Translations under genes and position numbers: made by a program
Part shown: piece by piece, positions 47,455 through 61,938 of the stretch
Layout: the number at the start of each line of letters is the position of its first letter
Position numbering within the stretch: the first letter of the stretch is position 1
Notes under the pieces: generated by a model
Told to the model about the DNA's origin: nothing
Database searches by the model: none
Seen by the model: only the letters and a program-made list of their open reading frames with translations
Assembly: GCA_000621985.1 (NCBI GenBank)
Contig: JHWW01000002.1
Coordinates: 372,001 to 436,000, forward strand
DNA: 64,000 nt
From: Lachnospiraceae bacterium V9D3004
Lineage (GTDB): Bacteria > Bacillota > Clostridia > Lachnospirales > Lachnospiraceae
Direction: 5' to 3'

Positions 47455-48225
47455 TTGAAGGAATCAGAGAGAGAAAAATTATGGCAGCAATATAGTGTAA
47501 AAAGAAGCCAGGATATTCGAGAAACACTGATTTTGGAATATGCGGGTCTTGTCAAGCTGGTTGCGGGACGACTTAATATGTACCTTGGTTATGCTGTAGA
47601 GTTTGATGACCTGGTTGGTTATGGTGTGTTTGGATTAATAGATGCCATTGACAAATTTGATTACGATAAAGGTATCAAATTCGAAACATATGCAAGTCTC
47701 AGAATAAGAGGCGCCATACTTGATCAGATCAGAAAGATGGACTGGATTCCAAGGACGCTCAGACAGAAGCAGAAGAGGCTTGAAAACGCGATCTCGGTAT
47801 TGGAGCTAAAGAACGGCAGGACACCTGATGACAAAGAGCTCGCAGCAGAACTTGAGATCACTGTTGAAGAACTTGAAAACTGGCAGCAACAGTCTAATTA
47901 TGCCAATGTTGTTTCTCTTGATGATTTTATGGAACAGGGCGTTGAGGTAAAAGTTGATAATACTGTCAGACCTGTATTTGAGAATCCGGAAGCCGGAGTA
48001 GCTAAGGAAGAATTGAAGGAGATGCTTTTAGAAGCACTGGAAGCATTGACCGAGAATGAGAAGAAGGTTATTTTGTTATATTATTATGAGGAATTAACAT
48101 TAAAAGAGATAAGTCTTGTTTTGGAAGTATCGGAATCAAGAGTATCTCAGTTACACACAAAAGCTCTGGTTAAGATGAAGAAAAGTCTTGGATCAGACGT
48201 AGAATTACTCAGTATTTTTTCATAA
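47455..48225 (+). CDS. fliA: Flagellar sigma factor (SigD/FliA)
   Basis: A 256-residue sigma-28 that reads late flagellar and chemotaxis promoters. TTG start after GGGTGTAATA. Region 2 (YAGLVKLVAGRL, then FDDLVGYGVFGLIDAIDKFD and FETYASLRIRGAILDQIRKMDW), region 3 and region 4 (LTENEKKVILLYYYEELTLKEIS...VSESRVSQLHTKAL) are complete. Partner anti-sigma FlgM is not in the window. Matches the sigD position at the end of the Bacillus operon. Confidence 0.96.
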   Translation: MKESEREKLWQQYSVKRSQDIRETLILEYAGLVKLVAGRLNMYLGYAVEFDDLVGYGVFGLIDAIDKFDYDKGIKFETYASLRIRGAILDQIRKMDWIPRTLRQKQKRLENAISVLELKNGRTPDDKELAAELEITVEELENWQQQSNYANVVSLDDFMEQGVEVKVDNTVRPVFENPEAGVAKEELKEMLLEALEALTENEKKVILLYYYEELTLKEISLVLEVSESRVSQLHTKALVKMKKSLGSDVELLSIFS

Positions 48226-50204: not shown

Positions 50205-51737
50205 ATGACCATAATGGATATTGTACTTATATTGATTGGATGTTTTTTGGTTGTTTTCAGTTTTGTGATCACTGAAAGAGTGTCCGACGCAAAGGAAAAG
50301 ACCTCCGGAGGAGGAGTAACGCAGGTCTGGGGCGAGAAAGAAGAATTTTCGATAAAATCAAGAGTTAAGGATATAGTGTCAGATAAATCTGAAGAGGTTA
50401 TCGTTTCTGTTGAAGACAGATTATGTCATCTATCTAATGAGAAGATAATGGAATTTAAAGAATACTCTGATGAAGTAATGGAGAGTATTAAAGAAGAACA
50501 TAAGCAGGCAGTATTTCTGTATAATATGCTTAATGAGAAAGAGAACGAGACAAAAGTTCTTCTTAACAGCCTTGATAAGAAATATGCTTTATTATCCGAT
50601 AAAGTCAATAAACTTATTCTTAAGCTTACAGAGAAGTCCGAAACTTCAGCAAAAAAACAGGTCAATTCTCAAAGTGATATCAGTACAAATATGAATCATA
50701 CCGCAATGCAGTACGATATTGCATCAGGTCCTATCGTAGACAATTCTAAGCAGGGAGCTGCTCTTCAGGAAGCAGTATTACTTAGAAACGGTGGCGGCAA
50801 TGTTGCGACACAGCAATCAGAAGATGGTGTTGTCCAAACTGTCATCGATTCTTCCGATGATCTTGCAGCAGGCAGTGAAGTTATGCCTGAACCGGAGCCT
50901 GAAGTTAAGGAACCTGTTCCCGAAAAGAAAAAAACAATATCCGATAAGATCAATGAATTAAATACGAGACTCGGAATAAAGAATACCGGCAAAAATAATA
51001 AGCCTAAAGAGACAGTACAAAAAAAGATTAATACGGAAACCGTTTCTTCCGAAGATATTGACAATATACTGGAAGAAGTTGCCGATGCAAATGTCGAAGA
51101 AGACATTGATTCTCAGTCTGATCTGTCAATACAGGCTGATATGATTCTTGAACAGGCTGGAATTACAGATGATGTATTTTCAAGTGTTGAGATATCTGAA
51201 ATTCCTGCAGAACCTGTAATACCTGAAGTATCCGATACTCCTGAAGTGCCGGATATCCCGGAAGTGGCAGAAGATCTTGACACATCTGAAAGTTCAATGA
51301 TGTCTGATGTTATTGAGATGTCTGACATTCCTGTAGAACCTGTAATGCCTGAAATGCCCGATACTCCTGAAGTGCCGGATATCCCGGAAGTGGCAGAAGA
51401 TCTTGACACATCTGAAAGTTCTATGGTGCCTGATGTTGCTGAGACATCTGACGAAGACGGCAAAGTTGATACCGCAGAGATTGACAACATACTTGAAGAT
51501 ATTGAAAAGCCTGAAAAACCATCTTCGTTGTTGGATGAACTTAATGCTAACAGTGTTGAGATTCCCGAATATAAGACCAAAAATGAAAGTGTAAGACCAA
51601 AATCGCAAGGAATGAGCAGGAACGAGAAGATTCTTGCCATGCATAATGAAGGGAAATCAGTAATAGACATATCAAGACAGCTCGGTATCGGACAAGGTGA
51701 AGTAAAGCTGGTCATTGATCTATTCAAAGGGGCATGA
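50205..51737 (+). CDS. SwrB-like protein with C-terminal DUF6115 helix
   Basis: A 510-residue single-pass protein. Membrane helix at about 4-22, coiled coil (about 60-150), a long acidic, Pro/Glu/Val-rich region with a 42-residue tandem duplication (about 329-412), and a C-terminal helix-turn-helix-like module NEKILAMHNEGKSVIDISRQ...KLVIDLFKGA of the DUF6115 type. Architecture and position after sigD match Bacillus SwrB, which promotes flagellar export-gate maturation; equivalence is inferred. The final codons overlap an ATG of the next frame. Confidence 0.65.
   Translation: MTIMDIVLILIGCFLVVFSFVITERVSDAKEKTSGGGVTQVWGEKEEFSIKSRVKDIVSDKSEEVIVSVEDRLCHLSNEKIMEFKEYSDEVMESIKEEHKQAVFLYNMLNEKENETKVLLNSLDKKYALLSDKVNKLILKLTEKSETSAKKQVNSQSDISTNMNHTAMQYDIASGPIVDNSKQGAALQEAVLLRNGGGNVATQQSEDGVVQTVIDSSDDLAAGSEVMPEPEPEVKEPVPEKKKTISDKINELNTRLGIKNTGKNNKPKETVQKKINTETVSSEDIDNILEEVADANVEEDIDSQSDLSIQADMILEQAGITDDVFSSVEISEIPAEPVIPEVSDTPEVPDIPEVAEDLDTSESSMMSDVIEMSDIPVEPVMPEMPDTPEVPDIPEVAEDLDTSESSMVPDVAETSDEDGKVDTAEIDNILEDIEKPEKPSSLLDELNANSVEIPEYKTKNESVRPKSQGMSRNEKILAMHNEGKSVIDISRQLGIGQGEVKLVIDLFKGA
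51190..51441 (+). repeat. 126-bp in-frame tandem duplication
   Basis: Two 126-base units lie back to back inside the SwrB-like gene. The longest exact stretch is 64 bases (51232-51295 equals 51358-51421). It encodes the VPDIPEVAEDLDTSESSM unit twice, so it is probably recent. Confidence 0.9.
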
Positions 51738-52494: not shown

Positions 52495-53514
52495 ATGATT
52501 AAATCCAGATATAACAAATTGCTCGAGGTATTGATCTATACTGTAATCATTATTTTGGTAATCATTACTGTGATTAATCTTGTTGTGTTCAATTACAGTA
52601 TAAGTGATTCGGATAATAATGAAAAGAAAGTATATCATTCATACAAGTATCATTTTGGAATGGTATATTCCAATTCGTCCGGGAACAAATGGAAAGAGAT
52701 CTATAATGCCGCGAATGAGTATGCCATGCAGAATGATGCTTATGTTGAAATAATCGGAGAAAATATCAAACAGAATTATTCCAAAGAAGATCTGTTTCGT
52801 ATTGCCATGCTGTCAGGTGTAGACGGGATCATTGTAGAAGGTGACGAAAAAAGCGATGAACTTAACATTCTGATCAATGAAGCATACGAAAGTGACATAC
52901 CTGTTGTGACGGTTATGACTGATGCTTCGGAAAGTAAAAGAAGCAGTTTTGTCGGACTTGGAAGTTATGATGTCGGTAAACAGCTTGGCGGACAGATGAT
53001 AAATCTTAGCAAAAAGAATGATGAAACGCATGTTATGGTTCTTATGAACAGCACAAACGGTTATCAGGAACAGCATACTATGTATCAGGCTATCGCAGAG
53101 AGTATTTCAGCGAAAGACAATATACTTGTTGATACATGGCTTGTAAGTAATGATAATGAATTCGGAGTAGATGAGGAAGTTAGGGATATTATACTTAACC
53201 TTCGTGAAGAACCGGATATCATGATATGTCTTTCGGATAATATCACAGAAAGCGCTTATCAACAGGTTGTAGAATATAATAAGGTCTCAAGTATTGATAT
53301 TATAGGTCTTGCATCTTCGGAGATCGTATATGATGCAATTAATAAAAATCTGATAGACGGTGTTGTTTCATTTGACAAAAAAATGATGGGAAACAATATC
53401 GTTGATGCGCTGTTGGAATATAAGAATAACGGATATGTAAATGAATATTACATGGTTGATACCAACCTTGTCACAAAAAGTAATGTGGGGAGGTATCTGA
53501 ATAATGAAGAGTAG
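52495..53514 (+). CDS. Membrane-anchored sugar-binding sensor protein
   Basis: A 339-residue periplasmic-binding-protein fold (Peripla_BP_4/ribose-type) tethered by an uncleaved-looking N-terminal helix (about 9-31); there is no lipobox. Typical blocks: HFGMVYSNSSGNKWKEIYNAA, GVDGIIVEG, IPVVTVMTDA and VGLGSYDVGKQLGGQM. It overlaps the kinase gene by 11 bases, so it is best seen as the ligand-binding partner of that kinase, as XylFII is for LytS in Clostridium beijerinckii. The ligand is unknown. GGAGAAACA precedes the ATG. Confidence 0.8.
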   Translation: MIKSRYNKLLEVLIYTVIIILVIITVINLVVFNYSISDSDNNEKKVYHSYKYHFGMVYSNSSGNKWKEIYNAANEYAMQNDAYVEIIGENIKQNYSKEDLFRIAMLSGVDGIIVEGDEKSDELNILINEAYESDIPVVTVMTDASESKRSSFVGLGSYDVGKQLGGQMINLSKKNDETHVMVLMNSTNGYQEQHTMYQAIAESISAKDNILVDTWLVSNDNEFGVDEEVRDIILNLREEPDIMICLSDNITESAYQQVVEYNKVSSIDIIGLASSEIVYDAINKNLIDGVVSFDKKMMGNNIVDALLEYKNNGYVNEYYMVDTNLVTKSNVGRYLNNEE

Positions 53515-54994
53515 AAGAAATTTTTATAATTCGATCAGCTTCAGGCTTGTTACAATATTCACATCAGTAATGTTCATTATTATGATCGTAAATATATATA
53601 TCTACCTTAATGTTAATCGAATAGTCGATAATATGAACACTGTGTATGACAAGAACTTTGTGCTTAACAATATGTATCAGGAATTACAGCAGATACAGGG
53701 AAGAATGACCGAATATCTTGAAAATAAGAATACCGATGTCATGGAGGAATATTATAAACATGCCCAGAACTATGAGCAGTACCTTGATGAATTGAATCAG
53801 GAAACCGTTGATGATAAGAATCTGCTCATGGAAAAGAATATATATAATATTTCGTTGGAATACCTCAAGGTGACCGAAAACAGCATTGATTATAAACGAG
53901 GAAGGAATATTGTAAAATACAGAATATCCTATGACCGGACGACGGTTTTGTGCGGATATCTTCTTGATTATATAGATCAGCTTAATAATTCTCTGTTTAT
54001 ATCAAGTTCTACGGACTATCAGACATTAATGGATGTCCTCAGGCAGACTCAGAGATTGTCTGTAGGGTTATTGCTGATAGCGATAATACTTACGATAATG
54101 CTTATTATGTTTGCAACCAATAAAATTACAAGTCCTTTGAAAAAGCTAGCGAAGTTTGCCAATGAGATCGCAGGAGGTAATCTTGACATCGAACCGGTTG
54201 AGATAAGTACAAAAGATGAAGTAGGTATTGTTACCAATGCTTTCAATAAAATGTTGAGCAGTATCAGAGAATATATTGAACAGATAAAAGAGAATATGGA
54301 AAGAGAGAGAGTTCTTAAGGAGAAGGAGCTTCTTATGGACACCCATCTTAAAGAGGCAAGGTTAAATTATCTTCGTGCTCAGGTTGATCCGCATTTCTTA
54401 TTTAATACACTTAATGCCGGAGCTCAGCTTGCAATGATGGAAGATGCGGACAGAACATATAATTATATACAGAATGTTGCTCAGTTCTACAGATATAACG
54501 TTAGAAATAATAAGGCGGTATCTTTAAAAGAAGAGATTAATCTAGTAGACAATTATATGTATATTATAGGCGTGCGTTATTCCGGAGACATTCATTATTC
54601 AAAGAGGATCGAGGAAGGACTTGACAGTGTGACCGTACCTCCGATGATATTACAGCCGATCGTGGAGAATTCCGTAAAACATGGAGTAATGGATACCGAC
54701 TGGCAAAAAGAGATATCTGTATCGGTATGGTTAAAAGAAGACAATGTATATATCAAAGTACATGATAACGGCGTAGGAATAAGTGAAGACGTAATAGAAA
54801 GTATCTTTTCTTCGGAAAGTGCAGTGACAAGTACCGAAGAAGATTCCAACGGAGTCGGACTGAAGAATGTGTTGAACAGACTTCGTTTGTTCTATGGCAA
54901 AGACGATGTTATGGATATTATCAGCGAAGGGCCTGACAAGGGAACGGATATTATCCTGATAATCCCATATGATGACGGAGGTAGCGATGTATAA
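53504..54994 (+). CDS. YesM-type sensor histidine kinase
   Basis: A 496-residue membrane kinase. Helices at about 13-35 and 184-205 frame a helical extracellular domain (about 36-183), then HAMP (about 206-258), coiled coil, and the LytS/YesM-type dimer-phosphotransfer part with His297 in QVDPHFLFNTLN. ATPase: N box Asn389 (PIVENSVKHG), DNGVG 421-425 and NGVGLKNV. Starts inside the previous gene and ends over the response regulator start, so the three are coupled. The small extracellular part suits sensing through a partner binding protein. Confidence 0.93.
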   Translation: MKSRRNFYNSISFRLVTIFTSVMFIIMIVNIYIYLNVNRIVDNMNTVYDKNFVLNNMYQELQQIQGRMTEYLENKNTDVMEEYYKHAQNYEQYLDELNQETVDDKNLLMEKNIYNISLEYLKVTENSIDYKRGRNIVKYRISYDRTTVLCGYLLDYIDQLNNSLFISSSTDYQTLMDVLRQTQRLSVGLLLIAIILTIMLIMFATNKITSPLKKLAKFANEIAGGNLDIEPVEISTKDEVGIVTNAFNKMLSSIREYIEQIKENMERERVLKEKELLMDTHLKEARLNYLRAQVDPHFLFNTLNAGAQLAMMEDADRTYNYIQNVAQFYRYNVRNNKAVSLKEEINLVDNYMYIIGVRYSGDIHYSKRIEEGLDSVTVPPMILQPIVENSVKHGVMDTDWQKEISVSVWLKEDNVYIKVHDNGVGISEDVIESIFSSESAVTSTEEDSNGVGLKNVLNRLRLFYGKDDVMDIISEGPDKGTDIILIIPYDDGGSDV

Positions 54995-56585
54995 GATATT
55001 GATTGCAGACGATGAGGGTATTACCGTAGATGCGCTTAAATTTATAATCGAGAAGTATTATGAGGGACAGTGTATAGTTGAAGCGGCAAAGTCCGGAAGA
55101 GAAGTGATAATGCTTGCCGAATCTTTCAGACCGGATATAGCATTTATGGATATTCATATGCCGGGTATCAATGGTATCGAAGCAATAAAGGAGATCAAAA
55201 AATCACAGCCGGGAATTCAGTTCATAATAATAAGCGCTTATGATAAGTTCAGTTATGCAAAGACAGCAATAGAACTCGGCGTATTAAAATACATCAACAA
55301 ACCTTTTGAACAAAAGCAGATCGTTGATGTTCTTCAGTATGCTATCGACCAGCTGGATGTTGAACGTAAGAAGAAAGACGAAGATCTTTTGATACGTGAA
55401 AAGCTCGAGAATGTCATACCGATAATCCAGAACGGTTTTATATACGATCTTTTGTTCAAAGAGCATTTTGAAGAAGATATAGAAGTGTTCAAAAAGCTCC
55501 TCGGGATAGAAAAGGATTACGGATTTATCATTGTCGGAGTATTTGGTGAGAGTCAGGAAGGCAATCATATGACAAATGCATCCGGAGCTTCGGTATATCT
55601 GCAGAAAAATTACAATGATCTAAGGGCACAGATCGAGAATTATTACGGCGACTGTATAGTAAGCAATAATATGGCCAACAAGATCGTTATATTCATTCCA
55701 TATGATGACAATACACTTGATTATACAATAAGATCGGAATATGTTAATAAGTCGCTTGATCTTATACAATCGATCAATAACCGGTTTGAAATACGTGTAA
55801 GGATCGGACTGGGCGGAGTATATAAGATCAATAATATGGCTGAGTCATATAAAGAGGCACTTAATTCATTGATCCAGTCAAACAGAAGAGTGGTACATGC
55901 CAATGATGTGTCTGTAAATGTGGAATATGAAAAGAACTATCCGATCGATATGGAAAGGGATATGTTTAATGCGGTAAAACGCGGGGATCTGAATGAGAGT
56001 ACAAGATGTGCAAGAAATTTCTATGAATGGATGCTTTCGGAATCCGGCGGTGAAGAAGGCGACATAAGGCTGAAAGTAATAGAATTCATACTGTGGGCAG
56101 AGAGGATAGCCTACGAATCCTCCGGAATGAATTACATTTTCAAATCAAGAAGCAATTATCTTGAAACACTTAACAGGCTTGATATGAATTACGAACTGAA
56201 AGACTGGTTTGTTGAATGTATAAGACAGGCCGCTCTTAACGTTGCTGACAAGAAAAAAGATAAATCCGGTAATATAATAAGTAAAGCCATAAAATATATC
56301 GAAACTAATTACACATCAGACATCTCACTTGACGGTGTATCAAGAGAGGTTGATGTGACACCGTACTACTTCAGTCGTTTGTTTAAAGAAGAAACCGGTG
56401 TGAATTTTGTGGAATATGTCACTAATATGCGTGTGGAAAAAGCAAAGGAATTATTAAAGAACACAAATTACAGTGTAAAGGAAGTATGTCTTGAAGTTGG
56501 ATATTCGGATCCAAACTACTTTAGTAGAACATTTAAAAAACACGAGGGTGTAACGCCGTCGGAATATAAGGAGGGACTGACCTGA
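54987..56585 (+). CDS. YesN-type AraC-family response regulator
   Basis: A 532-residue regulator. GGAGG at 54977-54981 fits ATG 54987. Receiver domain (about 1-120) with Asp8-Asp9 and phosphoacceptor Asp55, a long middle region (about 150-410) and an AraC double helix-turn-helix at the C terminus (SLDGVSREVDVTPYYFSRLFKEETG, then VKEVCLEVGYSDPNYFSRTFKK). Likely activates the downstream sugar-transport promoter (inference). Stop overlaps the next start. Confidence 0.93.
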   Translation: MYKILIADDEGITVDALKFIIEKYYEGQCIVEAAKSGREVIMLAESFRPDIAFMDIHMPGINGIEAIKEIKKSQPGIQFIIISAYDKFSYAKTAIELGVLKYINKPFEQKQIVDVLQYAIDQLDVERKKKDEDLLIREKLENVIPIIQNGFIYDLLFKEHFEEDIEVFKKLLGIEKDYGFIIVGVFGESQEGNHMTNASGASVYLQKNYNDLRAQIENYYGDCIVSNNMANKIVIFIPYDDNTLDYTIRSEYVNKSLDLIQSINNRFEIRVRIGLGGVYKINNMAESYKEALNSLIQSNRRVVHANDVSVNVEYEKNYPIDMERDMFNAVKRGDLNESTRCARNFYEWMLSESGGEEGDIRLKVIEFILWAERIAYESSGMNYIFKSRSNYLETLNRLDMNYELKDWFVECIRQAALNVADKKKDKSGNIISKAIKYIETNYTSDISLDGVSREVDVTPYYFSRLFKEETGVNFVEYVTNMRVEKAKELLKNTNYSVKEVCLEVGYSDPNYFSRTFKKHEGVTPSEYKEGLT

Positions 56586-57643
56586 TGATGAGAAGATGCT
56601 TGTTATTATCTGTCCTGATTTTGATCTTCGGAATATTTGGGGGATGCGGGCACGCAGAAGAGCAATCAACCGTTAATAAAGAAAAAGATGATAAGATTCA
56701 GATAGGAATGAGTTTTGATTCATTCGTTATAGAAAGATGGAACCGTGAAAAAGAGATATTTGTTGCCACTGCTTCCGAACAGGGAGCTGAAGTTAATGTC
56801 CAGAATGCCGGCGGCGATCTTGATACACAGCGTGAGCAGATAAAATATCTTATAAACAAAGGTATGGATGTTATCGTTATTATCGCTGTTGATTCAAACG
56901 GATTATCTGATATTGTAAAAGAAGCCGTTGACAGTGGGATCAAAGTGATTGCCTATGACAGACTGATCAATGATGCAGAGATAGATCTGTATATATCATT
57001 TGATAACAGACAGGTAGGTGTTCTGATGGCTAAAGCTTTGATGAATGCAACAGGCAATACCGGAAAATATCTTATGCTCAGCGGACCAACAACGGACAAT
57101 AATGTAAATATGATCGAAGACGGATTCAGAGCCACCGTAAAAAAATATGAATCCGGTATCAACATAATCGGGTATATGAATGCCGTAAACTGGAAAGCGG
57201 AATATGTATATGAATATCTCGAAAGAAATATTGATACATTAAATGAAGTAGACGGTATTATGTGCGGTAATGATAATCTTGCAACGCAGGCAATAAGGTT
57301 TCTTGCGGAAAAGGGACTTGCGGGCGAGATTCCCGTTGTCGGACAGGATGCCGATCTGGAAGCATGCCAGCATGTTGTTGAAGGTACCCAGCTTATGACA
57401 GTATATAAACCTGTGGAAAAACTGGCGCAAAAGGCAGTGGAATGTTCCATTAAACTTGCAAATGGTGATGCAGGCGTTACTTTAACAGGCAATACAATGC
57501 CAAACGGCAGATATAACTGCCCTTATATTAATCTTGACCCGGTTGCCGTTGATAAGAATAATATGGATGATGTCGTCATCGCTGACGGATTTCACCTGAA
57601 AGAAGAAGTATATTTGAATATTTCCGACAAAAAACATGATTAG
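56585..57643 (+). CDS. Sugar-binding lipoprotein (XylF-like)
   Basis: A 352-residue binding protein with a signal peptide ending in GGC (Cys21 lipidated). XylF-like blocks: IGMSFDSFVIERWNREKEIF, INKGMDVIVIIAVD, VIAYDRLI and MCGNDNLATQAIRFLAEKG. It lies last in the sensor operon, 4-base coupled to the regulator, and separate from the transporter by a promoter. So it may serve the sensor system, the transporter, or both. AAGGAGGG precedes the ATG. Confidence 0.87.
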   Translation: MMRRCLLLSVLILIFGIFGGCGHAEEQSTVNKEKDDKIQIGMSFDSFVIERWNREKEIFVATASEQGAEVNVQNAGGDLDTQREQIKYLINKGMDVIVIIAVDSNGLSDIVKEAVDSGIKVIAYDRLINDAEIDLYISFDNRQVGVLMAKALMNATGNTGKYLMLSGPTTDNNVNMIEDGFRATVKKYESGINIIGYMNAVNWKAEYVYEYLERNIDTLNEVDGIMCGNDNLATQAIRFLAEKGLAGEIPVVGQDADLEACQHVVEGTQLMTVYKPVEKLAQKAVECSIKLANGDAGVTLTGNTMPNGRYNCPYINLDPVAVDKNNMDDVVIADGFHLKEEVYLNISDKKHD

Positions 57644-57650
57644 TAGCACA

Positions 57651-57667
57651 ATTTTGCTGTGCAAAAT
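57651..57667 (+). repeat. Inverted repeat after the sensor operon
   Basis: ATTTTGCTGTGCAAAAT is a perfect 7-bp inverted repeat with a 3-base loop, eight bases after the stop. There is no clean T-run, so it could be a weak terminator or a protein site. Confidence 0.45.
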
Positions 57668-57682
57668 GCAAAAAGCAAAAAC

Positions 57683-57769
57683 ATGCTATATTGTTGTGCG
57701 AATGATTCTTCGAAACTGTAAAAAATTATAGAATGTTGCAAGTAAATGCTATACATAGTGTGATATTAT
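57683..57769 (+). promoter_or_regulatory. Activator-type promoter region of the chvE-ggu operon
   Basis: An extended -10 (TGATATTAT, 57761-57769) has no good -35 at the right distance (AGTAAA at 57741-57746). ATGCTATA occurs at 57683-57690 and 57746-57753, 63 bases apart. The pattern fits a promoter that needs an activator such as the AraC-type regulator encoded just upstream. Confidence 0.5.
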
Positions 57770-57783
57770 AGCCACTGTAGGGA

Positions 57784-57800
57784 GTGTGTGTATCACACAC
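57784..57800 (+). promoter_or_regulatory. Palindrome in the chvE leader
   Basis: GTGTGTGTATCACACAC, a perfect 7+3+7 inverted repeat, lies shortly after the expected transcription start and 35 bases before the coding start. Operator or mRNA hairpin. Confidence 0.55.
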
Positions 57801-57835
57801 GACTATAATTATAATAATGAGGAGGAGAACAAAAA

Positions 57836-59038
57836 ATGAGAAGAAAGTTATTAGGTGTAGTTCTTAGCGTTGCTATGGTAGCTACTCTGCTTACCGGATG
57901 TGGTAAGAAGGAAGAGACTCCGGCACCTGCAGCAGACGACACAAAGCAGGAGGCAACTGATGACAAGGCTGATGATGCAGCAGCTGATGATGCAGCAGCT
58001 GATGACGCAGCAACTGATGAGAAGGCTGATGATGCAGCTGATTCAGGAAGTTCAGAAGGCGGACTTGTTGGTGTTGCAATGCCTACAAAAGATCTTCAGA
58101 GATGGAATCAGGACGGTTCCAACATGGAAGAGAAACTTAAGGCTGCAGGATACGATGTAGATCTTCAGTATGCTAGTAATGATGTTGCTACTCAGGTATC
58201 CCAGATTGAGAACATGATCGCTAACGGATGTAAGGTTCTTGTAATCGCATCTATTGAAGGTGATTCACTTGGAACAGTTCTTGAGCAGGCTCAGGAAAAA
58301 GATATCAAGGTTATCGCTTATGACAGACTTATCATGAATTCACCTGCTGTATCTTATTATGCAACATTTGATAACAATCTTGTAGGTAAGAAACAGGGCG
58401 AGTACATCAGAGATCAGCTTGATCTTGACAATGCAGGCGACAAGAAATTCAACATTGAGTTCATAACCGGTGACCCGGGTGACAACAATGTAAACTTCTT
58501 CTTCGGCGGTGCTATGGAAGTTCTTCAGCCATATCTTGACAGTGGCGTGCTTGTTTGCCCATCAGGACAGACATCTAAGGATGATTGTGCTACACCTGAA
58601 TGGTCTTCAGAGAAGGCTCAGACAAGATTTGAGAACATTCTTTCATCTTACTATGCAGACGGAACTCAGCTTGACGCAGTTCTTGCATCAAACGATTCTA
58701 CTGCACAGGGTGTTGCAGCAGCACTTGAAGCTAACTATGATGGCAAATATCCGATACTTACCGGACAGGATTGTGATATCGTAAGCGTTAAGAACATGAT
58801 CGATGGCAAGCAGTCAATGTCTATCTTCAAGGATACACGTACTCTTGCAGAGAAGGTTGTTGGAATGGTTGATGCTATCATGAAGGGTTCAGAACCTGAG
58901 ATCAATGATACAGAGACTTATGACAATGGTGATCATGTAGTTCCTTCATATCTTTGCGAGCCTGAATTTGCTGATATCAATAACTACAAAGAACTTCTTA
59001 TTGATTCAGGATATTATTCAGAGGATGATCTCAAATAA
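57836..59038 (+). CDS. chvE: ChvE-like multiple-sugar-binding lipoprotein
   Basis: A 400-residue binding lipoprotein, signal peptide with lipobox LTGC (Cys22), then an Asp/Ala-rich linker of about 45 residues. The binding domain resembles ChvE, the partner of GguA/GguB: VGVAMPTKDLQRWNQDG, VIAYDRLI, ITGDPGDNNV and LASNDSTAQG. Substrate could be xylose, arabinose, galactose or glucose. GAGGAGGAG precedes the ATG. First gene of the transporter operon; an intercistronic hairpin follows. Confidence 0.88.
   Translation: MRRKLLGVVLSVAMVATLLTGCGKKEETPAPAADDTKQEATDDKADDAAADDAAADDAATDEKADDAADSGSSEGGLVGVAMPTKDLQRWNQDGSNMEEKLKAAGYDVDLQYASNDVATQVSQIENMIANGCKVLVIASIEGDSLGTVLEQAQEKDIKVIAYDRLIMNSPAVSYYATFDNNLVGKKQGEYIRDQLDLDNAGDKKFNIEFITGDPGDNNVNFFFGGAMEVLQPYLDSGVLVCPSGQTSKDDCATPEWSSEKAQTRFENILSSYYADGTQLDAVLASNDSTAQGVAAALEANYDGKYPILTGQDCDIVSVKNMIDGKQSMSIFKDTRTLAEKVVGMVDAIMKGSEPEINDTETYDNGDHVVPSYLCEPEFADINNYKELLIDSGYYSEDDLK
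57971..58015 (+). repeat. 15-bp repeats coding the Asp-Ala linker
   Basis: Three consecutive 15-base units (GATGATGCAGCAGCT twice, then GATGACGCAGCAACT) encode ADDAA-type repeats in the lipoprotein linker. Likely variable in length. Confidence 0.85.
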
Positions 59039-59093: not shown

Positions 59094-59118
59094 AGGCGGG
59101 TAGTCTGACTGCCCGCCT
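59094..59118 (+). other. Intercistronic hairpin chvE-gguA
   Basis: AGGCGGGTAGT pairs with ACTGCCCGCCT (one T-G pair) around a CTG loop: a very stable 11-pair stem followed by TGTTTATT. It probably stabilises the binding-protein mRNA or partly terminates, giving more binding protein than transporter. Confidence 0.75.
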
Positions 59119-59159: not shown

Positions 59160-60695
59160 TTGGCAAAGATTATCCTGGAAATGAAAAATATAACAAAAAC
59201 CTTTCCTGGCGTAAAAGCGCTTGACAATGTTAATCTCAAGGTTGAAGAAGGAGAGATTCATGCACTCGTTGGGGAGAATGGTGCCGGAAAATCAACATTG
59301 ATGAATGTACTAAGTGGTACTTATCCTTATGGTTCTTATGAGGGTGATATCATATATAATGGTAAGGTTTGCAAGTTTAATAATATCAAAGACAGTGAAA
59401 GTAAAGGAATAGTTATAATCCATCAGGAATTAGCTCTTATTCCTTATATGACTATTGGAGAGAATCTTTTCCTTGGTAATGAGCGAGGAAAGAAATATGC
59501 TATCGACTGGGATGAAACTTACGGTGAAGCCGATAAATATCTGAAAACAGTCGGATTAAAGGAATCGTCCGAAGTATTGATAAAGGATATCGGTGTCGGT
59601 AAACAGCAGCTCGTTGAGATTGCAAAGGCACTGGCCAAGAATGCGAAGCTTCTTATATTGGACGAACCCACATCTTCTTTGAATGAAGCTGATTCACAGG
59701 CATTGCTTGATCTGCTTCTTAAGTTTAAAAAAGAAGGCTTGACTTCGATTATTATATCTCATAAGTTGAACGAAGTTGCATATGTTGCTGACCATATTAC
59801 GGTTATTCGAGACGGTGCAACCATTGAAACTTTAGATAATGAAAATAGAAAGATTGATGAAGGAAGAATTATTCAGGGAATGGTTGGACGAGAGATATCT
59901 GACAGATTCCCGCCCAGACTGGAAGGAACCAAGATTGGTGATGTTTGCTTTGAAGTAAAAGACTGGTCAGTATATCATCCTTTATATACTGAGAGAAAAG
60001 TTGTTGATAATGTATCTATAAATGTCAGAAAAGGTGAAGTGGTCGGAATATCAGGTCTTATGGGAGCTGGTAGAACCGAGCTTGCAATGAGTGTGTTCGG
60101 AAGAAGTTACGGAACCAATATAAGCGGGTCTTTGCTCATTAACGGTAAAAAAGTCAAATTGAAGACTTCAAGAGAAGCAATCGATCATGGACTTGCTTAT
60201 GTTACAGAAGACAGGAAAGGTAATGGACTTATACTTGAATCAACTATTCGAGAGAATACATCTCTTGCTAATATGAAAGCTGTAAGTAAGAATTCAATTA
60301 TCGATCATGATAAAGAATATGCCGTGGCAGAGGAATACAGAGTTAAGCTTAATACGAAGACTCCTTCTGTTGAACAGCTTGTCGGTAATCTTAGTGGTGG
60401 TAACCAGCAAAAAGTGCTTCTGGCAAAATGGATGTTTGCAGAGCCTGACATATTGATACTTGATGAACCAACAAGAGGTATTGATGTGGGCGCCAAATAC
60501 GAGATATATTGTATTATCAATCAGCTTGTTGCGGAAGGTAAGTCGGTAATTATGATATCTTCAGAGCTTCCAGAGGTTCTTGGTATGTCTGACAGAATAT
60601 ATGTCATGAATGAAGGAAAGATCGTTGGTGAGCTCGATGCAAAAGAAGCTACCCAGGAGAAAATCATGGGAATGATCGTAAGTACAGGAAAGTAA
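59160..60695 (+). CDS. mmsA: Multiple-monosaccharide ABC transporter ATPase (GguA/MmsA)
   Basis: A 511-residue double ATPase of the CUT2 class. TTG start after TAGGAGGA. First cassette: Walker [10 protein letters not shown] (about 38-46) and Walker [12 protein letters not shown]; second cassette: [10 protein letters not shown] in place of a full Walker [15 protein letters not shown] signature and [13 protein letters not shown]. The [10 protein letters not shown] and [14 protein letters not shown] segments match GguA/MmsA rather than RbsA or XylG. Drives uptake with the permease that follows. Confidence 0.92.
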
Positions 60696-60744: not shown

Positions 60745-61938
60745 ATGAATAAGGCGAAAGTAATGGATTATGTCAAAAAATATACAATGATATTAGCATT
60801 AATTCTTGTGATCATATTCTTCTCAATATCGACCGGTGGAAAACTGCTTCTTCCACAGAATATTGCTAATCTTATTGCTCAGAACGCATATGTGTTCGTT
60901 CTTGCAACCGGTATGTTGTTAGCAATTCTTACCGGTGGTAACATCGATCTTTCGGTTGGATCGGTAGTATGTTTTGTAGGTACGATAGGTGCAGTTGCAA
61001 TGACAAGCTGGGGAATACCAACAATTCCGGCTGCTTTGCTTGTGCTTGCTGTAGGTCTTGCTATAGGTGCTTTCCAGGCATATTGGATAGCTTATGTCAG
61101 GGTTCCACCGTTCATCGTAACACTTGCAGGAATGCTCATGTTCAGGGGATTGTCCAACGTAGTGCTTGAAGGTAAATCAATATCATTAAAAGACAACAAG
61201 TTATTCCTTCAGGTATTTGGTGGTGGTGCTGATTGCTATATCCCGGATATAACAGTTGATATCAATATGTTCGGTATAACAAAGATATATGTTATATGCT
61301 GTCTTGTTGGTGTTGTTGCTGCTGCAATATATATATTTACAGTATTAAGAAGCAGAGCCAATAAGATATCCAAAGGTTATAAGGTTAAGCCTTTTATATC
61401 AGATCTTGCCAGCATGATTATAATAAGTGCTGTTCTTATCGTAGTAAGCTTCATGCTTGCTCAATATAAAGGTATACCGACAGTGCTTGTATGGGTACTT
61501 TTGGTAGTTCTTGCCTATGGTTATCTTACATCCAAGACTACAACAGGTAGATATTTCTATGCAGTTGGTGGTAATGAAAAAGCTACAAAACTTTCAGGTA
61601 TAAATACCAATAAGATTTATTTCATAGCATATGCAAACTTAGGTTTTCTGTCAGGTCTTGCCGGACTTCTTGTTGTAGCACGTATGACATCTGCACAGCC
61701 TACGGCCGGACAGAACTACGAGATGGATGCTATCGGATCGTGTTTCATCGGTGGCGCATCTGCATACGGTGGAGTTGGTACTGTTCCCGGAGTTATCATT
61801 GGTGCAACTTTGATGGGTATCATCAACCAGGGTATGAGTATCATGGGTGTAGATGCAAACTGGCAGAAAGTTGTTAAAGGTGTAGTTCTTCTTGTAGCTG
61901 TTATCTTCGACGTAGTATCAAAGAGACAGAAGGATTGA
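60745..61938 (+). CDS. mmsB: Multiple-monosaccharide ABC transporter permease (GguB/MmsB)
   Basis: A 397-residue polytopic permease of the CUT2 class with about ten helices. The signature GGNIDLSVGSVVCFVGTIGA lies near residues 54-73, then YWIAYVRVPPFIVTLAGMLMFRG, and C-terminal GGASAYGGVGTVPGVIIGATLMGIINQGMSIMG. Length and blocks match GguB/MmsB rather than the shorter RbsC. TTTGGAGG precedes the ATG. Last gene before a strong terminator. Confidence 0.92.
   Translation: MNKAKVMDYVKKYTMILALILVIIFFSISTGGKLLLPQNIANLIAQNAYVFVLATGMLLAILTGGNIDLSVGSVVCFVGTIGAVAMTSWGIPTIPAALLVLAVGLAIGAFQAYWIAYVRVPPFIVTLAGMLMFRGLSNVVLEGKSISLKDNKLFLQVFGGGADCYIPDITVDINMFGITKIYVICCLVGVVAAAIYIFTVLRSRANKISKGYKVKPFISDLASMIIISAVLIVVSFMLAQYKGIPTVLVWVLLVVLAYGYLTSKTTTGRYFYAVGGNEKATKLSGINTNKIYFIAYANLGFLSGLAGLLVVARMTSAQPTAGQNYEMDAIGSCFIGGASAYGGVGTVPGVIIGATLMGIINQGMSIMGVDANWQKVVKGVVLLVAVIFDVVSKRQKD

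Follow-up and report, generated by a model that had tools for sequence, protein, structure and literature searches.

Sugar-reading kinases are usually pictured as one receptor coupled to one kinase. Among the described systems, XylFII-LytS/YesN of Clostridium beijerinckii (5XSJ, 5XSS and 5XSD) follows this scheme, with an anchored sugar-binding protein, a LytS kinase and a YesN regulator. The locus considered here lies in a stretch of 64,000 nucleotides (the window) from Lachnospiraceae bacterium V9D3004 (assembly GCA_000621985.1, contig JHWW01000002.1, positions 372,001 to 436,000). It consists of four genes, hereafter A, B, C and D, at 52495-57643 of the window, where a sequence-only reading had described four overlapping genes for an anchored binding protein, a kinase, an AraC-type regulator and a XylF-like lipoprotein, all of which were recovered on the + strand at their exact coordinates. 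The order of A-B-C, the fold of the anchored binding protein, the LytSN ectodomain fold and the placing of a YesN gene beside a sugar ATP-binding cassette (ABC) transporter are shared with XylFII-LytS/YesN. Unlike in that system, D is included in the sensor operon as a fourth component, four coordinating residues are missing from the window's A, among them the Asp that is mutated in 5XSD, the kinase displays a Lys-Arg tip, and the transporter is ChvE-GguAB. We consider it reasonably probable that A-B-C-D is a four-component derivative of XylFII-LytS/YesN in which sensing has moved from A to D, A being now an adaptor.

The AraPST and GanPST systems of Geobacillus stearothermophilus are each composed of a sensor binding protein, a kinase and a regulator, with one signalling binding protein per system, and we know of no second dedicated binding protein in either of them. 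The fold of A is as close to AraP (6SW4) and GanP (6GQ0) as to XylFII; the PDB structures of GanP include glucose and galactose. In Ruminiclostridium cellulolyticum, the CuaDSR system relies, as proposed here for D, on a lipidated binding protein that serves signalling only, transport having a binding protein of its own, and that binds the kinase ectodomain, but it includes a single signalling binding protein without any anchored pocket-less partner, and the ligand of CuaD is the disaccharide cellobiose (PMC10384115). One signalling binding protein is also the general scheme of such sensors (PMC10384115). In the ChvE-VirA pair of Agrobacterium, a XylF/ChvE-type sugar-binding protein likewise acts on a sensor kinase (PMC13068155), but Agrobacterium ChvE doubles as a transport protein, whereas D is a dedicated paralogue and the window carries a separate ChvE. 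In a Parageobacillus locus, a YesM-YesN pair is encoded together with two binding proteins, one a ChvE-type lipoprotein and the other a non-lipoprotein, and which of the two signals was left open (PMC13068155). Finally, E. coli XylF has the same fold as D and agrees with it at every pocket position tested, whereas D differs by its clade, its equivalog scores and the absence of adjoining XylGH. No published four-component sensor with a pocket-less partner was found in a literature search that did not cover most subscription journals; this form is thus taken as new, XylFII-type sensing itself being known.

Sugar pockets of the two binding proteins

The PDB sequence closest to A is that of C. beijerinckii XylFII (5XSD; phmmer E=5e-12). 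The AlphaFold2 model of A, with a predicted local distance difference test (pLDDT) score of 92.8, begins with an N-terminal helix at residues 2-41, and its fold matches XylFII with a Z score of 28.7, GanP with 29.4 and AraP with 29.1, these values being unspecific as many sugar-binding proteins reach similar ones. The pocket comparison was based on positions equivalent to the pocket of the E. coli ribose-binding protein, the pocket positions of this protein and of E. coli XylF being taken as known for these structures. Four of them, equivalent to Asp89, Arg141, Asp215 and Gln235 of the ribose-binding protein, were used for scoring. The A protein of the window keeps none of the four and carries M141, A273 and F293 where XylFII has Asp, Asp and Gln. 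The residue distinguishing 5XSD, whose PDB title reads 'XylFII-LytSN complex mutant - D103A', from 5XSJ is the Asp aligned with Met141 of A.

Across the A proteins of the host family, the Lachnospiraceae, the four equivalents are lost and variable. The substitutions are diverse (Leu, Met or Tyr at one position, Tyr, Ala or Ser at another) and form no conserved replacement set, and the window's closest relatives are unlike the rest of the family at these residues. A two-input sensor, in which D reads a pentose or a hexose and A, its pocket remodelled, responds to another ligand on the same kinase, stands near the view of the sequence-only reading. It can lean on the high confidence of the modelled fold and on the few residues that remain invariant in A, D143 and R149 among them, but the equivalent of D143 also occurs in XylFII and the changes at the pocket positions, as described, settle on no new set; we regard it as quite improbable. 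A is proposed instead to be a ligand-blind adaptor whose sugar pocket is degenerate, to judge by its residues.

The state of the pocket was compared between systems with and without D. The D-less XylFII-type systems, eight in number and all outside the host family, are either C. beijerinckii-like (xylFII-lytS-yesN-xylFGH) or have ChvE directly after YesN, and all four pocket residues are present in A in 8/8. In the 78 D-containing systems of the Bacillota, A keeps none of the four residues in 67 cases, one in seven and two in four.

For D, the closest PDB sequence is E. coli XylF 3M9W (E=9e-72). D scores under both curated XylF equivalog cut-offs, with 269 bits against 389.6 for TIGR02634 and 282 against 504 for PRK10355. 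Its pocket residues (R51, W52, D125, R126, N173, W203, N229, Q254, D255 and K275) are the E. coli XylF set and are invariant in 50/50 host-family members. D is most likely the sugar-binding subunit of the sensor and, since its pocket is that of XylF, D-xylose or a similar monosaccharide would be its first candidate ligand, other monosaccharides of ChvE-type transporters being possible.

The sequence-only reading had proposed a sensor of XylFII-LytS/YesN type with two binding proteins. The comparative data do put D in the sensor, but the idea of two working receptors that broaden the ligand range or compete for the kinase is not supported; a pocket that is lost and variable in one protein and invariant in the other points to a division of labour between an adaptor and a sugar binder. 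The complete XylF pocket of D, together with its lipidation in the window as in transport binding proteins, would also suit the main alternative, that of D as a transport binding protein made constitutively, which would scavenge sugar and give the ABC transporter a basal supply, only A and the kinase being involved in sensing. The place of D in the sensor operon would then secure some uptake ahead of induction. We consider this alternative unlikely.

Distribution of the cassette and the place of D

Besides the window's own locus, the A-B-C-D cassette was found in 49 loci of the host family and in 24 loci of other Bacillota families. Of the 49, 48 have the four genes in order, and in L102 the A-B-C block is inverted relative to D. 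The cassette is a widespread module in the Bacillota, in an arrangement beyond chance, and is not confined to the window. Most of the weaker XylFII-like matches were excluded as binding proteins of other ABC loci that lack the cassette.

Co-occurrence was assessed in 200 genomes of the host family, one per genus. A occurs in 54 and D in 52 of them, with 51 genomes having both, one D only and three A only (Fisher p ~1e-42). The D-only genome (G137) and one of the A-only genomes (G015) are contig-end cases; the other two (G169 and G189) are truly without D, A-B-C being present (loci L150 and L151). The link between ChvE and D is looser, with 43 genomes having both, 9 D only and 17 ChvE only. D thus tracks A rather than the transporter, which speaks against a transport role.

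The transporter genes that follow are also of several types. In the host family, the cassette is followed by ChvE-GguAB or a divergent ChvE-like transporter, whereas in other families XylF-XylGH can also follow, or the stretch read holds no transporter. Five loci contain, in addition to D, a distinct transport XylF with its XylGH, which again argues against D as the transport protein. The alternative downstream transporter was also considered as MglBAC, an assignment that was rejected, its binding protein being divergent ChvE-like (~260 bits).

D is apart from transport proteins in its phylogeny as well. When 31 cassette D proteins were placed in a tree with 15 transport XylFs, they formed a single clade with a support of 100/99, and the D clade stood likewise apart in an earlier tree sample (support 99/100); it is separate even from transport XylFs sharing its locus. 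The lipobox Cys of D is present in 50/50 aligned host-family sequences. Outside the host family, about 15 of 24 D proteins carry a membrane helix without the lipobox Cys, whereas transport XylFs mostly have a lipobox. Such an anchor in many relatives, the separate clade and the loss of the A pocket where D is present all count against the transport role. In its favour L102 can be cited, where A-B-C are inverted and D opens the transporter operon. With D as the sole query, a scan of genome contigs returned one distant relative.

Residues 88, 148, 181 and 242 of D differ consistently from transport XylFs, whose Asn, Gln, Gln and Ala are replaced by Tyr, Met, Phe/Tyr and Glu, respectively. These positions are candidates for the marks of an altered docking surface.

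The gap between C and D is close to zero or replaced by an overlap in most of the 49 loci, and D is separated from the first gene of the transporter by 141-300 base pairs (bp) in nearly all loci where that gene follows. A 50-bp motif is common to the D-chvE gap of 42 loci (expectation-maximization log-likelihood of 626 versus 137-147 for shuffles). Scanned against the whole genome, the motif model has its single strong match at the D-chvE site (E=4e-9), the next one reaching E=0.16, and no comparable match occurs within 300 bases upstream of A. A promoter scan gave no excess of predicted sites over shuffled sequence. The motif is a good candidate for the operator at which C, the YesN protein, would act on the transporter operon. 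With a single strong site genome-wide, that upstream of chvE, no wider regulon emerged, and the motif designates no further targets and gives no hint of the ligand.

The conserved motif between D and chvE assigns D to the sensor side, and membership of D in the transporter operon was rejected on the grounds of spacing, motif and co-occurrence. It had also been suggested that D could link transporter saturation to signalling. This finds no support, given the variety of transporters with which D occurs, the loci where none is adjacent and the conserved promoter in between.

Some loci depart from the common layout. In one genome, a second and very divergent A-B-C-D set (L098; A ~23% identical), followed by the divergent transporter type, is found beside the standard cassette. 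In another locus (L109), the gene after A-B-C-D codes for a further YesN-like regulator and not for a transporter. A Bacillus-type locus of Mesobacillus subterraneus (L030) associates A-B-C with a transport-clade XylF; its A keeps 3/4 pocket residues and its kinase is without the Lys-Arg tip.

Kinase tip and proposed mechanism

For the ectodomain of B, modelled with a pLDDT of 90, the top structural match is LytSN (5XSJ_L), with a Z score of 17.8 and 2.0 Å over 121 residues. Lys-Arg at positions 131-132 of the kinase is found in 66 of the 70 D-containing systems that could be scored, the others having Arg-Arg (two), Lys-Gln (one) and Lys-Leu (one), and in 0/8 kinases from D-less systems. In the described complex, XylFII contacts helices 3 and 4 of LytS (PMC9769921). 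Since the Lys-Arg tip sits at the turn between these helices in the model, the kinase face meeting the binding proteins, be it A or D, is apparently one that changed as D was acquired and the A pocket decayed.

In the mechanism that we propose, A would be a former XylFII-type receptor that has lost its pocket and stays anchored by the kinase as an adaptor or scaffold. D, a XylF paralogue tethered outside the membrane by a lipid in the window and, in some relatives, by a membrane helix, would bind the sugar, as its pocket suggests. Sugar-loaded D would then act on the A-kinase complex, probably where the face of the ectodomain is altered, around the turn between helices 3 and 4, and the kinase would phosphorylate the YesN protein C. 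The latter would activate the promoter just upstream of chvE, as the operator-like motif suggests, and ChvE-GguAB would be switched on. That such a heteromeric sensor, with a ligand-blind pseudo-receptor and a XylF paralogue on one LytS-type kinase, is widespread in the Bacillota and derived from the three-component XylFII type is a proposition to which we give slightly better than even chances.

A negative role of D would also fit the data on gene neighbourhood, co-occurrence and the kinase tip. D would then act as a decoy or competitor that silences the kinase until sugar releases it, after which the kinase or A would signal by default. Some published binding proteins do contact their sensor with and without ligand (PMC6321045), but XylFII and CuaD, both known relatives, are said to promote induction by the ligand (PMC10384115), and we hold this role of D to be highly improbable.

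The transfer of sensing from A to D has to be weighed against several observations. The first is the arrangement of L102, already mentioned. In L150 and L151, A-B-C is directly followed by the divergent ChvE-like transporter, and A is more degenerate still, the pocket Trp being also gone; a degenerate A can thus occur without D, perhaps after a loss. A secondary loss of D in these two loci is possible and fits their kinases, as these have Lys-Lys at the tip. Furthermore, some D-containing systems outside the family retain one or two pocket residues in A, and A could have another ligand in a remodelled pocket. Finally, the state of the A pocket, the tip of the kinase and the presence of D are phylogenetically nested traits. 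Because the trees require only one or two changes for each of them, their association corresponds to few evolutionary events.

Neighbouring genes and significance

The coordinates of the four genes and of the features that follow them are collected in the table, where the bit scores of chvE, gguA and gguB are set against the curated NCBI cut-offs, all three of which are exceeded. The overlaps of A/B, B/C and C/D amount to 11, 26 and 1 bases for the reading frames as listed, that of B/C varying with the choice of ATG for C. In the ChvE protein, the lipobox is joined to the binding domain by a long low-complexity linker rich in Asp and Ala (residues ~28-72). The window has one gguB gene; in many relatives (eight loci noted), gguB-like permease genes are tandemly doubled after gguA, which suggests a heterodimeric permease. 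Upstream of the sensor, the gene at 50205-51737 codes for a DUF6115 protein with a repeated Pro/Glu-rich segment, without relation to the sensor, and a flagellar-type sigma factor gene (47455-48225) is located a little upstream of it.

Table. Features of the sensor locus and of the adjoining transporter operon, in positions of the window
Feature	Position	Strand	Description
Gene A	52495..53514	+	339 residues; N-terminal membrane helix; Peripla_BP_4
Gene B	53504..54994	+	496 residues; 4HB_MCP-like ectodomain, HAMP, His_kinase, HATPase_c; YesM/LytS-type
B codons 131-134, Lys-Arg-Gly-Arg	53894..53905	+	Turn between ectodomain helices 3 and 4 in the model; marker of D-containing systems
Gene C	54969..56585	+	538 residues; receiver (Response_reg) and AraC-type HTH_18; YesN-type
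Gene D	56585..57643	+	352 residues; lipobox Cys21; Peripla_BP_4; XylF family
D-chvE intergenic region	57644..57835	+	192 bases; between sensor and transporter operons
Conserved 50-bp promoter/operator motif	57717..57766	+	Candidate YesN site; ends in an extended -10-like sequence
chvE	57836..59038	+	Multiple-monosaccharide transport binding protein; NF040907, 464 bits vs cut-off 460
Terminator-like hairpin, chvE-gguA gap	59094..59118	+	11 bp stem; 7 such sites vs 4.4 expected regionally, class not significant
gguA	59160..60695	+	Sugar ABC transporter ATPase; NF040905, 844 bits vs cut-off 810
gguB	60745..61938	+	Sugar ABC transporter permease; NF040906, 468 bits vs cut-off 450

About one in four of the 200 host-family genomes sampled carries the module. 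The XylF-like genes included in such cassettes are probably sensors and not transport proteins, which can serve as a rule for annotation. If the proposed transfer of sensing is true, the module would constitute a natural experiment in swapping the ligand-binding step without rebuilding the kinase.

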